From: an uncultured Campylobacterales bacterium
Lineage (GTDB): Bacteria; Campylobacterota; Campylobacteria; Campylobacterales; CACVAW01
Direction of reading: 5' to 3'
NCBI GenBank assembly: GCA_902727925.1
Contig: CACVAW010000002.1
Location: 1-49,577 of the forward strand
Length of the DNA: 49,577 nucleotides
A program made the translations under genes and the position numbers. Positions 9,289-17,893 of this stretch are shown here, piece by piece. The notes under the pieces are model-generated. The model made no database searches. It saw only the letters and a program-made list of their open reading frames with translations, and was not told the DNA's origin. Numbering within the stretch: the first letter of the stretch is position 1; every line of letters begins with the position of its first letter.

Positions 9289-9939
9289 ATGAAAGATTCA
9301 ATATATATACTACTTATAAGCTTATTATTTACAGGCTGTGATATGTCTTCAAGTGGAGTAGCAGAAGCAGAAAGAGAACTTGAGCAAAGAGCTATTCAAG
9401 AAGAGATAGATGATTACAGAAGAACCTTACCAATTACTGATTTAAACCACCCTGAATATGTACTACCACAAGATCCTGGAAGTGCTGGAAAAGATGAACT
9501 ACTAGGAATAGATAGTAATGATAATGGAATCCGAGATGATGTAGAGATATATATCTATAATAGATATAAAAACGAACCAAATCATAAAAGAGTACTAATA
9601 GCAATAGCATCGCAATACGCAAAAGCAACCCAAAAAATACTAGTAGACCCTGAAAATGCTTATGATAATGAAACTTATAAGATTATGCATGATAGTTATG
9701 ATTGTACTTTTTATTGGTATAGAAAATATACAAAAAATCTAGATACTACAGCCAAAAGAATAGAATTTAGAAAATCAAATGATCCAATTGATGATGATAT
9801 ATCTAAAGAGATTTTCAACACATATGAAAGGAATAAGGCTTATATAGAATATAATGGAGCTTTAGGTGGTAAGGTGTTTAAAGACAGAATGTCAAAAATT
9901 GAACATTGTGATAGAAATATAAATATACTGGATAAATAA
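9289..9939 (+). CDS. Predicted lipoprotein with DSNDNGIRDDVE Ca-binding-like motif
   Basis: MKDSIYILLISLLFTGCDMSS lipobox; IDSNDNGIRDDVEIYI. Confidence 0.75.
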   Translation: MKDSIYILLISLLFTGCDMSSSGVAEAERELEQRAIQEEIDDYRRTLPITDLNHPEYVLPQDPGSAGKDELLGIDSNDNGIRDDVEIYIYNRYKNEPNHKRVLIAIASQYAKATQKILVDPENAYDNETYKIMHDSYDCTFYWYRKYTKNLDTTAKRIEFRKSNDPIDDDISKEIFNTYERNKAYIEYNGALGGKVFKDRMSKIEHCDRNINILDK

Positions 9940-11744
9940 TGAAATATTTATTACTTATTTTAATCTTAATTTCTAATCTTTACGCAAATATAGATGAAAG
10001 AAAAATTGATATTTATTATATAAATGATATTTTTATTAGCGAAAAACAAGCTATCAAGAAAAAAGATCTATTGAAAGAAGAAATCCAAATTACATACCTC
10101 TCCAACGAAGAATACCTATCACAACACACAAGCTTCGACTTAGCATTTAACTACGATAAAATATGGTGGAACGATGTACTAGAAATAGTACACCAATACA
10201 TAAGAAATGGACAAATAGAAAATGACTATAGAGTTCTACTAAGATTAATATCATCATACGGAAGAAAAGGACTTGTAGAACAAACAGCAGTTGAAATATC
10301 AAATGAACAACTTGCACTTCTAAACTCAGCCTTTGAAAACAAATCATATATAAGAGAAATAGAAGATGATAACATAGATGACCTATACAATCAAATAAAA
10401 TCATATAGCCTTAAGAGTTCACATAGAATAGCAGTAGTTTCATTTGGTCAAGGTGGTTTCTTTTCTAATGGAATATATAGAAGACTAAATAATCATAATA
10501 AATACTTCAAAAATCTTCAAATAGCTACAAGAACAAATAGAGTAGAGAGTCTTGATCCTCATATCACACTTTCTACTGATAAAATTACACAACTGCCTTT
10601 TTTGGATATTCTTCAAGGTGACTATAATAATACAGATGGATATATAGATCATACACTTTCAGATTATCTTTCAGGCAATGACACAGGACCAGCGATACTA
10701 GGAGTAGTTTCATCCCAGATAAAAGAACTCTCAAAGCTAGGAAGTCAATGGAGTATAAAAGATGAAAATAACAAAGGAACTTGTACTTATAGAGTAGAAC
10801 TAACAAACGATGTAGATACAAGTATTGATAATTTGTTTGATGTATATCCATTTAATAAAGATGGATTAGTATATACAGTAAACGAAATGGGAAAAACAAA
10901 AAGTGAATATGTAAAAGGTACTAAAGAAGGTCAAGAGATAGAATCATTTATTTGGGATTATCCAAAAGATAATTGTGAGAAGTATCCTACTGATAAACCT
11001 TGTTATACACTTACAAAGACAAGTGACGAAATAAAACCTTTTTTCAATGCTAGTAAATACAAAGTACTATTTGAATATGAAAAAGGAACTTGTAATCACA
11101 GGGTATCTGTACAGGATTTGTATAGTGGCAAGTTATATGCTGAAGTTTATCCATTTAGTACAAACGGATCATACTTGTATCAAGTAGTAAATGAGAGTAA
11201 TGAGACCAACACGGTACTATCACAAAGTTGTCAAGGTACACAAATAAAACTAACTGTTCCTGAACATGAATGTTATGAATTAGAGAATACATCAGAAAAG
11301 ATATATCAAGATTTAACGATAACTAAAACAGAAGTTATAAACGAATGTAAAACTGAGAGAATAACAGGCTCTAAAGGCTATAGTTATTGGGAAGATTTTT
11401 GTGATTATAGTGTTGTTATTAATGATTGGATTAAGTCAGAGTGGGACTGGGTGGATGATAGCTTAAAGCCTTGTGAGTTTCCAAAAGAAGATGGTGTTTC
11501 ATTCTCAAAAGAAGTACCTGAGGGGTATAGTCTTAAAGAAGAGAGTACAACGGAGTCTAATACTGCAAAGTTAGTTTATGATTCTACTGACAAGAATGCT
11601 GTTGATGTTGCTTATATTGTGGGTCAAGCTAGGTGTTATAGGTCTCTTTTGCGTGGTAGTAGTAGCTCTATAAAGTATCAGGCTACTGTGAATAAGGGTT
11701 ATGAGACTAGTTCTACTTCTACTGGCGTTTATAGTAAGGATTAG
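9939..11744 (+). CDS. Secreted Cys-containing 601-aa protein, N-terminal half lipase-like
   Basis: Signal peptide MKYLLLILILISNLYA; RIAVVSFGQGGFFSNGIYRRLNN resembles an alpha/beta-hydrolase nucleophile elbow; start overlaps preceding stop. Confidence 0.7.
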   Translation: MKYLLLILILISNLYANIDERKIDIYYINDIFISEKQAIKKKDLLKEEIQITYLSNEEYLSQHTSFDLAFNYDKIWWNDVLEIVHQYIRNGQIENDYRVLLRLISSYGRKGLVEQTAVEISNEQLALLNSAFENKSYIREIEDDNIDDLYNQIKSYSLKSSHRIAVVSFGQGGFFSNGIYRRLNNHNKYFKNLQIATRTNRVESLDPHITLSTDKITQLPFLDILQGDYNNTDGYIDHTLSDYLSGNDTGPAILGVVSSQIKELSKLGSQWSIKDENNKGTCTYRVELTNDVDTSIDNLFDVYPFNKDGLVYTVNEMGKTKSEYVKGTKEGQEIESFIWDYPKDNCEKYPTDKPCYTLTKTSDEIKPFFNASKYKVLFEYEKGTCNHRVSVQDLYSGKLYAEVYPFSTNGSYLYQVVNESNETNTVLSQSCQGTQIKLTVPEHECYELENTSEKIYQDLTITKTEVINECKTERITGSKGYSYWEDFCDYSVVINDWIKSEWDWVDDSLKPCEFPKEDGVSFSKEVPEGYSLKEESTTESNTAKLVYDSTDKNAVDVAYIVGQARCYRSLLRGSSSSIKYQATVNKGYETSSTSTGVYSKD

Positions 11745-13668: not shown

Positions 13669-14631
13669 ATGTCAATTTTTTCTAATCGTTACATCACAAA
13701 TGAAGATTTAGATCATAGTTATTTACAGGCATTACAATCAAGAGTTATACCCCCTATTCATAGGTTTACTAGTAAAGTTCAAGTTAACTCTTGGTTTAAT
13801 TTATATGAAGATGAGGATAATATATATTATGATAGTATTCATAACTTCGCAAAATCAATTAAAGCCAATATTGCCGAATATGTAAAAAAAGATATGAACT
13901 ATATATCTATTGGTGGATTGAATGATGTTAAAGATAGGTATTTACTAGAAGAATTTACAAAGCAGACAAACCCTACTTTAAGTGTTATTGCATCATCTAA
14001 ATATTTAGTCAAAAACACTCTTGATTCTTTGAGTAATATAGATATGAAAAAAGAAGTTTTTATATCTGATTTTAATGCAAAAAACATCAGATTAATTAGT
14101 GAAGAAATTAGGGAAGAACATCATAGTAATCATTTCTTCTCACTTCTAGGTAATAGTTTTGGTATATATCCTCAAGAATATATCTCAAAAGCTCTTAGAG
14201 ATGCTATGAATAAAGATGACTATCTTCTTATAGAAGTACATACCTCCCCTGACAGAATCACTCCAACACATACTAAAAAAATGCTATTAAACTACAGACG
14301 AGAAAAATTCCAAAAACATATTATTTTGATACTTGATAAGATAGGTATAACTCTTGAAGATGGAGATTTAGAACTAGAATACAGTAATGATAAGTTTTTT
14401 ACAGAAATGACAGTAGTAAACTACTACTTTAGATTTAAAAAATCAAAAATAATAAGATTTCTAGATCAAGATATATACTTTGCTAAAGATGAAAGAATAC
14501 TCCTTTTCTCATCAAATAAGTATAAACTTTCTGTGTTGAAGAATATTTTAAACAATCATGGTTTTAGAATAAAAGAAGAGTTTATATCATCTGAACTTAA
14601 TTCAGTTCAGATACTTTGTCAGCTAAAGTAA
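13669..14631 (+). CDS. EgtD-like SAM-dependent methyltransferase domain protein
   Basis: YISIGGLNDVKDRYLLEEF..., GNSFGIYPQEYISKAL...DDYLLIEVHTS. Confidence 0.55.
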   Translation: MSIFSNRYITNEDLDHSYLQALQSRVIPPIHRFTSKVQVNSWFNLYEDEDNIYYDSIHNFAKSIKANIAEYVKKDMNYISIGGLNDVKDRYLLEEFTKQTNPTLSVIASSKYLVKNTLDSLSNIDMKKEVFISDFNAKNIRLISEEIREEHHSNHFFSLLGNSFGIYPQEYISKALRDAMNKDDYLLIEVHTSPDRITPTHTKKMLLNYRREKFQKHIILILDKIGITLEDGDLELEYSNDKFFTEMTVVNYYFRFKKSKIIRFLDQDIYFAKDERILLFSSNKYKLSVLKNILNNHGFRIKEEFISSELNSVQILCQLK

Positions 14632-15696: not shown

Positions 15697-16107
15697 CTAC
15701 TTAACTAACTTTAATATACTTTTTTCTAACTCATTTGCATATTTCATGTCACTATTTTGTTTTGTTTTCATAGCATCTATTATTACTTTGTGATGCTCTT
15801 TTAATCTCTGAACATAGTCTTTTTGTGACTCTTTAACTCTTTGTGTAAGAAAATAATCACTTATAGTTGCAATTATATTTTGTGAATGAGCTTCTTTATT
15901 ATTAACCCACCGAATTAATTGATTATACGATTGAGCATCTTTTTTCTTAGATAACTCAGAAATTGAGTTCAAAGCTTTTTTTATAGTAGCTACATCTTGA
16001 AGCATCTCTTTGACTTTTGCATTATCATCATATATTCCACAAGGTATTTGACAATGTGAATAAAGAAATGAAGCCAAGAGTATAAGTATCATACTTATTC
16101 TTTTCAT
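15697..16107 (-). CDS. sodN: Nickel superoxide dismutase, exported form
   Basis: MKRISMILILLASFLYS|HCQIPCGIYDD: Ni-hook HCxxPCGxY right after a signal-peptide-like stretch; Glu at mature position 17; ISDYFLTQR and LKEHHKVIIDAMKTKQ. Confidence 0.85.
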   Translation of the reverse strand: MKRISMILILLASFLYSHCQIPCGIYDDNAKVKEMLQDVATIKKALNSISELSKKKDAQSYNQLIRWVNNKEAHSQNIIATISDYFLTQRVKESQKDYVQRLKEHHKVIIDAMKTKQNSDMKYANELEKSILKLVK

Positions 16108-16212
16108 AAAGGTCCTTAATATTTTTCTTATCTAAAAGCAAATATATCTAAAAAATGTTAATATAATAATGTATTTAATTAAGTCTAATCAATCTTTTAT
16201 AAAAGGATTAAT

Positions 16213-16584
16213 ATGAAAATTATATTTTTAATTTTTACTCTTTGTTACTCTCTATTTGCAAAGCTTACTTATGTTGATGTAACTGAGCTTGAGAGATTAA
16301 AACTCCCTATCATAGACATAAGAACTCAAAATGAATTTAAACAAACAGGAACTATCCCCAAAGCTCACAAAATAACATTCTTTGATGAGTTTGGTAGATA
16401 TGATTTTGTTTCTTGGGAAAAAGACTTACTCAGTATCATAGATGATAAAAATAGCTCTTTTGTTTTGGTTTGTAGAAGTGGTGGTAGAACCACAAAAGTA
16501 GGAACTTACTTAAGTGATATAGGATATAAAAATATATATCACTTAAAAGGCGGAATAAAATCTTGGATTAATAAAAAAGATTAA
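16213..16584 (+). CDS. Exported rhodanese-like sulfurtransferase
   Basis: Signal peptide MKIIFLIFTLCYSLFA; IDIRTQNEF; active-site loop CRSGGRT; LKGGIKSW. Confidence 0.85.
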   Translation: MKIIFLIFTLCYSLFAKLTYVDVTELERLKLPIIDIRTQNEFKQTGTIPKAHKITFFDEFGRYDFVSWEKDLLSIIDDKNSSFVLVCRSGGRTTKVGTYLSDIGYKNIYHLKGGIKSWINKKD

Positions 16585-16836: not shown

Positions 16837-17893
16837 TAATTAAAAAAACGGGTGCATAAAAAGTTAACTATAGTTCGATATATTGGTAGTAAACAAAGGT
16901 TTATTTACAAATGGCTGTAAAAAAGTAGCAAAATATGTCCAAAATGTGACTCACAAGATATACAAAACAGAGGTTCAAGAAGAGGGATAAAAAGATATTT
17001 TTGTAAAGATTGTAAGAGTTCATTTAGTGGGACAAGACGATCAAAAAAGCTACAAGAAATCATATTTAAAGAGTATTTTTTACAACGCCAGACTTTAACA
17101 CAATTAGCTACCAAATATAATAGGTCAATACCATGGATAATGAAACAAAGAGATGAATATAATGTAGGTGAAAAAGTCCATAATCCAAGGCCGGTAAACT
17201 TAGTATGTGACGCTACATTTTATGAGAAGAATAGAGATAAGCTAGGTACTTTAGTATTTAAAGATGTAGAGTCTAAAGAGATACTTATCTGGAAACATAT
17301 TGACGGTGAAGTAGTAGAAGACTATAGACACCTAAAAGAAGAACTCATAACTTTAGGTTATACAATACAAAGTGTTACGATAGATGGTAAGAGAGGCGTA
17401 GACAAGGTATTTAGAGGTATACCTATACAAATGTGTCATTTCCATCAGAAGAAAATAATACAGCGATACATTACACTTGAGAGCAAAGTTGCAAGCTAGT
17501 AAAGATTTTAGAAGAATAGTTTTCAGATTAACGCTTACTACAGAAAAAAACCTCACTAAAAAACTAGATATTTGGTATGAAAAATATGAAGATTTTTTAA
17601 ATGAAAAAACACCTTCAAAAACTACTGGAAAACTTAGTTATACTCATCCAAAGATTAGATCTGCTTATAGAAGTTTAAGAACTCATTTACCCTACCTATT
17701 CACATATAAAAAGCATAAGAATTTGTATATTCAAAACACAACAAACTCTCTTGAAGGTGGTGTATTCTCTCATATGAAAAATATGGTTAGTTTACATAGA
17801 GGTCTTAATAAAAGTCTCAAGCTTAAATTAGTAAATTTTTATTTAGTCAACTATCTAAAAAAAGTCTAAACTATGCACCCGTTTTTTTAATTA
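16837..17893. mobile_element. Insertion sequence with 22-bp perfect terminal inverted repeats (may include part of the target duplication) and an IS256/MULE-like transposase
   Basis: Left taattaaaaaaacgggtgcata (16837-16858); right tatgcacccgtttttttaatta (17872-17893); possible TTAATTA target duplication. Confidence 0.85.
16933..17869 (+). pseudogene. Transposase with N-terminal zinc ribbon, disrupted (no ATG at expected start, +1 frameshift near 17477-17499)
   Basis: (ATA)CPKCDSQDIQNRGSRRGIKRYFCKDCKSSF... frame 1 to 17499; frame 2 continues LRAKLQASKDFRRI... to 17869. Confidence 0.75.

Follow-up and report, generated by a model that had tools for sequence, protein, structure and literature searches.

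Nickel superoxide dismutases (NiSOD) need a free N-terminal histidine, His1, and are normally described as cytoplasmic enzymes that depend on a dedicated protease, SodX. Earlier work on sodN has also indicated that NiSOD tends to replace Fe-SOD. In the Streptomyces enzyme (SodN with SodX; PDB 1T6U, 1Q0D), a polar propeptide is cut off by SodX in the cytoplasm and residue 3 of the mature protein is Asp. In a survey of cyanobacteria, sodN in genomes that lack sodX was considered possibly non-functional, such that these cyanobacteria might not be able to use the enzyme (PMC8346466).

The combination of a signal peptide and His1 on a Sod_Ni protein is already published. In the SOD_Ni protein of Roseiconus lacunae (WP_230780104.1), the leader MTRLLTATLALMFTASIASA ends directly before the His residue (PMC12537917, Nat Commun 2025); that study used the leader only as a bait for other metalloproteins, and the maturation, location and activity of the protein were outside its scope. 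RefSeq annotates signal-peptide Sod_Ni proteins as superoxide dismutase [Ni], among them WP_013389192.1 from Ilyobacter polytropus, a cultured member of the Fusobacteriota, in which the leader MNKLVLILSLLILIPNYLFA is followed by HCEVPCGIYDD. The gene for this protein is located on a replicon of 0.96 Mb and is known by annotation alone, and no SodX was found among its annotated neighbors. No studies of maturation by signal peptidase, or of a periplasmic or secreted NiSOD, were found in the openly accessible literature, and exported NiSODs apparently represent a broad, uncharacterised class.

Here, we describe a member of this class from an uncultured bacterium of the order Campylobacterales. 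The gene is located in a contig stretch of 49,577 nucleotides, hereafter called the window, from a genome of 1.5 Mb that is 99% complete and the sole representative of its family among the genomes compared.

A NiSOD family protein with a Sec-type leader

The features of the gene are listed in Table 1. The open reading frame starts with ATG, and its product begins with MKRISMILILLASFLYS followed by HCQIPCGIYDD, as given in a first-pass annotation of the window that had recognized the nickel-binding hook HCxxPCGxY and assigned the protein to NiSOD. The assignment was borne out by the Pfam profile Sod_Ni (PF09055), which matched the protein with 114 bits against a cut-off of 25 bits, while the NCBIfam equivalog model for sodN (TIGR02753) gave only 37 bits (cut-off 90), and the protein thus diverges from the characterised SodN type. 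A search of the whole genome recovered no other Sod_Ni copy than the window gene itself.

Table 1. Features of the NiSOD locus, with positions numbered from the first nucleotide of the window.
Feature	Position	Strand	Description
Exported-type Sod_Ni gene (predicted)	15697..16107	minus	136 aa precursor; PF09055 E 8e-33
Sec-type signal peptide MKRISMILILLASFLYS	16057..16107	minus	Predicted cleavage after Ser17 (L at -3, S at -1)
Nickel hook HCQIPCGIY	16030..16056	minus	His1, Cys2, Cys6 and Tyr9 of the mature protein
Mature four-helix NiSOD domain, 119 aa	15700..16056	minus	Sequence, AF2 model, fold match, family alignment
Shine-Dalgarno-like AAGGA	16113..16117	minus	5 nt upstream of ATG; read directly from the sequence

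The hook immediately follows a hydrophobic leader, as the annotation had stated; the leader has 17 residues, with Lys and Arg in the n-region, an uncharged hydrophobic core and a c-region of five residues. The only cysteines in the mature protein are the two hook ligands. AlphaFold2 predicted a confident four-helix model (pLDDT 88), for which the best fold matches in PDB were crystal structures of NiSOD, with 3g50 and 1t6u on top (Foldseek probability 1.00, E 0.04, TM up to 0.75 by target); the weak E-values are explained by an identity of only 15%. A profile search of PDB was also run, and together with the fold search it led to NiSOD where a single-sequence search had not. The sole match given by the latter, to a coiled-coil protein, was spurious. 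By its Sod_Ni profile match, its hook and its predicted fold, the window gene is a member of the NiSOD family. It shares these traits with the Streptomyces enzyme, but differs from it by having a Sec leader rather than a polar propeptide, by Gln at residue 3 and by the absence of SodX.

The genome encodes a signal peptidase I but no SodX

The first-pass annotation had noted that no protease gene is adjacent to the NiSOD gene, which we confirmed, and had proposed that His1 is exposed by signal peptidase rather than by SodX. Searches of the whole genome with the SodX model (TIGR02754) identified no SodX, only a partial match of 19 bits to an ordinary, intact signal peptidase I, LepB (G000:C48, 278 aa), as identified by TIGR02227 with 126 bits (cut-off 47). 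Cleavage between Ser and His had been considered plausible by analogy with two other leaders in the window, and both are present (MKYLLLILILISNLYA before N at 9939, and MKIIFLIFTLCYSLFA before K at 16213). Within about 310 kb of stretches from the same genome, leaders end in a similar manner, with LFA, LYA or IFA.

Among 397 genomes from the phylum of the window genome, only four others had Sod_Ni (G165, G304, G324, G348). These genomes are from the same order, and their NiSODs share the Sod_Ni family with the window protein but differ by having short leaders that end with KA or HA before HCDVPCGIYDP and are not signal peptides, a SodX of about 100 aa located about 80 bp downstream, and no Fe-SOD in the genome.

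Two types of NiSOD across phyla

We compared the window protein to Sod_Ni proteins from several phyla, in a census in which 49 of 343 genomes of Planctomycetota, 46 of 289 of Verrucomicrobiota and 12 of 199 of Acidobacteriota were positive. The 117 usable loci fall into two types. The propeptide type (22 loci) has short, non-hydrophobic and polar propeptides and the hook HCDxPCG, and the signal-peptide type (95 loci) has hydrophobic leaders and the hook HC(Q/E)xPCG, with HCS in one locus. The Ilyobacter protein is 43% identical to the window protein. The nearest relatives of the latter are from Calditrichia, Verrucomicrobiota, Planctomycetota, Armatimonadota, Kiritimatiellae and Acidobacteriota, and the ten nearest from other phyla all have a hydrophobic leader that ends at the hook.

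SodX, scored by whole-genome searches with TIGR02754, was adjacent in 21 of the 22 propeptide-type loci and in 0 of the 95 signal-peptide-type loci (Fisher 3e-22, as for the other comparative counts with loci that are not fully independent, the genomes being related). The match was located directly downstream in each of these 21 loci and mostly spanned the full model (positions 2-69 in G478), and the single propeptide locus without it (G508) stops at a contig edge. Both types occur together, as single copies, in three genomes (G506, G575, G597), where SodX adjoins only the propeptide copy. A weak, unlinked match to TIGR02754 with full coverage (30.6 bits, 162 aa) was observed in G464.

In a tree of the mature domain, inferred by a quick method from few columns, the two types are separated by a single change of type on a long branch (SH-aLRT 99, length 4.8), with the Streptomyces-type and window NiSODs on opposite sides. 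The window protein is placed inside the signal-peptide clade, where it forms a small group together with proteins from Calditrichia and from marine-type Verrucomicrobiota, which makes it likely that the gene was acquired laterally. No relatives were found in viral contigs. Judged by sequence, the window NiSOD is one member of a large clade and not a local oddity. A very divergent Sod_Ni-like protein from an Acidobacteriota genome (L107, G1045), with the hook HCSLPCGYYDWD after a hydrophobic leader, has an extremely long branch in the tree.

The hook is in register with the signal peptidase site

The hydrophobic leaders of the 95 loci vary widely at positions -2, -4 and -5 relative to the hook. 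Position -1 is occupied by A in 72, S in 15 and G in two (89 of 95), and position -3 by A in 48, V in 20, L in 12, I in nine and S in three (92 of 95). As read from these leaders, the rule for signal peptidase I is obeyed exactly at the hook, beyond what is expected by chance, and the window leader conforms to it. The SodX-type propeptides end with A at -1 in all 22 cases, with A or V at -3, which fits with SodX being a relative of the signal peptidases, as also indicated by the partial match of LepB to TIGR02754. We infer that the SodX and LepB routes would share a similar cleavage chemistry in different compartments.

In four proteins from Planctomycetota (L120, L121, L124, L125), some 15-20 additional residues separate the hook from the hydrophobic core and position -1 lacks a small residue, so that a single cut by signal peptidase would not free His1. 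For these, a second cleavage or a loss of function would be expected.

Residues and C-terminal tails

The residues His1, Cys2, Pro5 and Cys6 are invariant in all 117 Sod_Ni proteins, and the exported members retain these along with Tyr or Phe at position 9. Residue 3 is Gln or Glu in the exported clade versus Asp in the SodX type. The columns that correspond to Arg47 and Lys64 in the Streptomyces sequence, as entered in the alignment, are occupied by His and by Leu or Met, respectively, in the exported members (His and Leu in the window protein). Since Asp3, Lys64 and Arg47 are replaced, the activity of the window NiSOD cannot be taken for granted.

The first-pass annotation had also pointed to a Glu at mature position 17, as in Streptomyces. 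Numerically, residue 17 is indeed Glu, but the window protein has an insertion of one residue after Tyr9 relative to the Streptomyces protein in the family alignment, and Glu17 of the latter is therefore aligned with Met18. This column contains M, L or I in the exported clade, and the Glu is not kept in the sampled SodX-type proteins either; with no conservation in the column, Glu17 was dropped as a diagnostic argument.

His-rich C-terminal tails were identified in 42 of the 95 exported-type proteins, as compared to none of the 22 SodX-type proteins. One protein ends with YYPEHHHHH (L003) and GHGHDHK-like tails occur elsewhere; the window protein has no such tail. That the tails take part in nickel loading is a speculation.

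Superoxide dismutase complement and compartment

Other superoxide dismutases were counted in 80 of the census genomes. Fe/Mn-SOD was found in none of the 19 genomes with the propeptide type only, as compared to 38 of the 58 genomes with the signal-peptide type only (phylum-stratified exact P 3e-6), and the direction was identical in each of the three phyla in which both NiSOD types occur. Cu/Zn-SOD, which is commonly an exported enzyme, was found in 8 of 19 versus 3 of 58 genomes (P 0.002); both P values are optimistic because the genomes are related. This pattern fits with an envelope location for the exported type and a cytoplasmic location for the SodX type. The window genome encodes one leaderless Fe-SOD (MTHKLPELKYAKD...), and no Cu/Zn-SOD was found in it, as expected if NiSOD serves the envelope.

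We consider it rather likely that these are two ancient NiSODs split by compartment and protease. One would be a cytoplasmic enzyme that is matured by SodX and replaces Fe/Mn-SOD. The other would be an envelope enzyme that is matured by signal peptidase, receives its nickel outside the cytoplasm, perhaps aided in many members by the His-rich tail, and occupies the niche of Cu/Zn-SOD.

Proposed maturation and alternative explanations

Maturation of an exported NiSOD by signal peptidase, as proposed in the annotation, is favored by all indirect tests, namely the absence of SodX, the presence of LepB, the register of the hook and the complement of superoxide dismutases. Very probably, the window NiSOD belongs to an exported, SodX-independent clade in which His1 is freed by signal peptidase I. 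The precursor would be threaded unfolded through Sec, and LepB would cut after Ser17 and thereby free His1 of the nickel hook. Once outside the cytoplasm, the protein would bind nickel through His1, Cys2 and Cys6, and the mature enzyme would remove superoxide in the periplasm, with the separate leaderless Fe-SOD covering the cytoplasm. Cleavage, export, nickel loading and activity are all deduced here from sequence comparisons. In the oxidising periplasm, the two thiols could become linked by a disulphide ahead of nickel binding, and the analysis identified no factor that would deliver nickel to the window NiSOD.

Alternatively, the hydrophobic segment may be a propeptide that is cut in the cytoplasm by a putative SodX-like protease, given that the SodX-type propeptides also end with a small residue and that SodX is related to the signal peptidases. 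However, those propeptides are short and polar, whereas the leaders of the window clade are typical signal peptides; moreover, there is no full-length SodX in the window genome or near any of the 95 clade members, and the genome already has a cytoplasmic Fe-SOD, which makes a cytoplasmic NiSOD very unlikely. An anchored protein would also agree with the hydrophobic N-terminal segment and a cysteine two residues past the site: the leader would be an uncleaved membrane anchor, or Cys2 would belong to a lipobox that is processed by signal peptidase II. We regard this as very unlikely, for a lipobox needs G, A or S just before the Cys and His is found there in all 95 members, including the window protein. 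In addition, the hydrophobic core of about 10-13 residues is short for an anchor, a canonical -3/-1 site comes after it, and the invariant hook would be destroyed if the N-terminus were left uncleaved or were lipidated.

It is also conceivable, if improbable, that the protein is exported and cut before His1 but serves as a periplasmic metal-binding or metal-carrier protein and not as a superoxide dismutase. The replacement of the three residues of the characterised enzyme and the His-rich tails in other members of the clade are compatible with this, and N-terminal-His proteins that bind nickel and are apparently not enzymes have been reported (compare the "anglerase" idea, PMC12537917). On the other hand, all first-sphere ligands, Tyr/Phe9 and the fold are retained, and the complementary distribution relative to Fe/Mn-SOD and Cu/Zn-SOD is in keeping with a superoxide dismutase.

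If the clade of exported, signal peptidase-matured NiSODs is real, an absence of SodX does not mean an absence of function, and the replacement of Fe-SOD by NiSOD would hold for the SodX type only. It also raises the question of how a nickel site with thiol ligands can be put together in the envelope, which is testable now in Ilyobacter polytropus as a cultured carrier.

Gene neighborhood

A rhodanese gene is divergently transcribed from the NiSOD gene across an intergenic gap of 105 bp (16108-16212), the distance given in the first-pass annotation, and is followed by a DUF6868 gene. Neither gene recurs in the vicinity of the other 94 signal-peptide-type loci, and both were ruled out as functional partners since the neighborhood is kept at no other exported NiSOD. 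An apparent neighbor family shared by 28 loci lacked the hook and looked like the NiSOD gene itself read from the reverse strand, and no conserved partner gene of the signal-peptide-type loci is claimed from the comparison of neighbors.

Elsewhere in the window, a gene for a short lipoprotein-like protein and one for an exported protein of 601 aa, for which no NCBIfam match was found, lie consecutively at positions 9289-11744. A protein encoded at 13669-14631 has a weak match to the histidine N-methyltransferase EgtD (32 bits; cut-off 291), and its gene adjoins a formyltransferase-like gene on the opposite strand. About 1 kb from the NiSOD gene, at 16900-17870, two overlapping frames make up a split transposase of the IS256-variant kind. 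In line with a Campylobacterota host, its closest plasmid relatives are from Aliarcobacter (67% identity).
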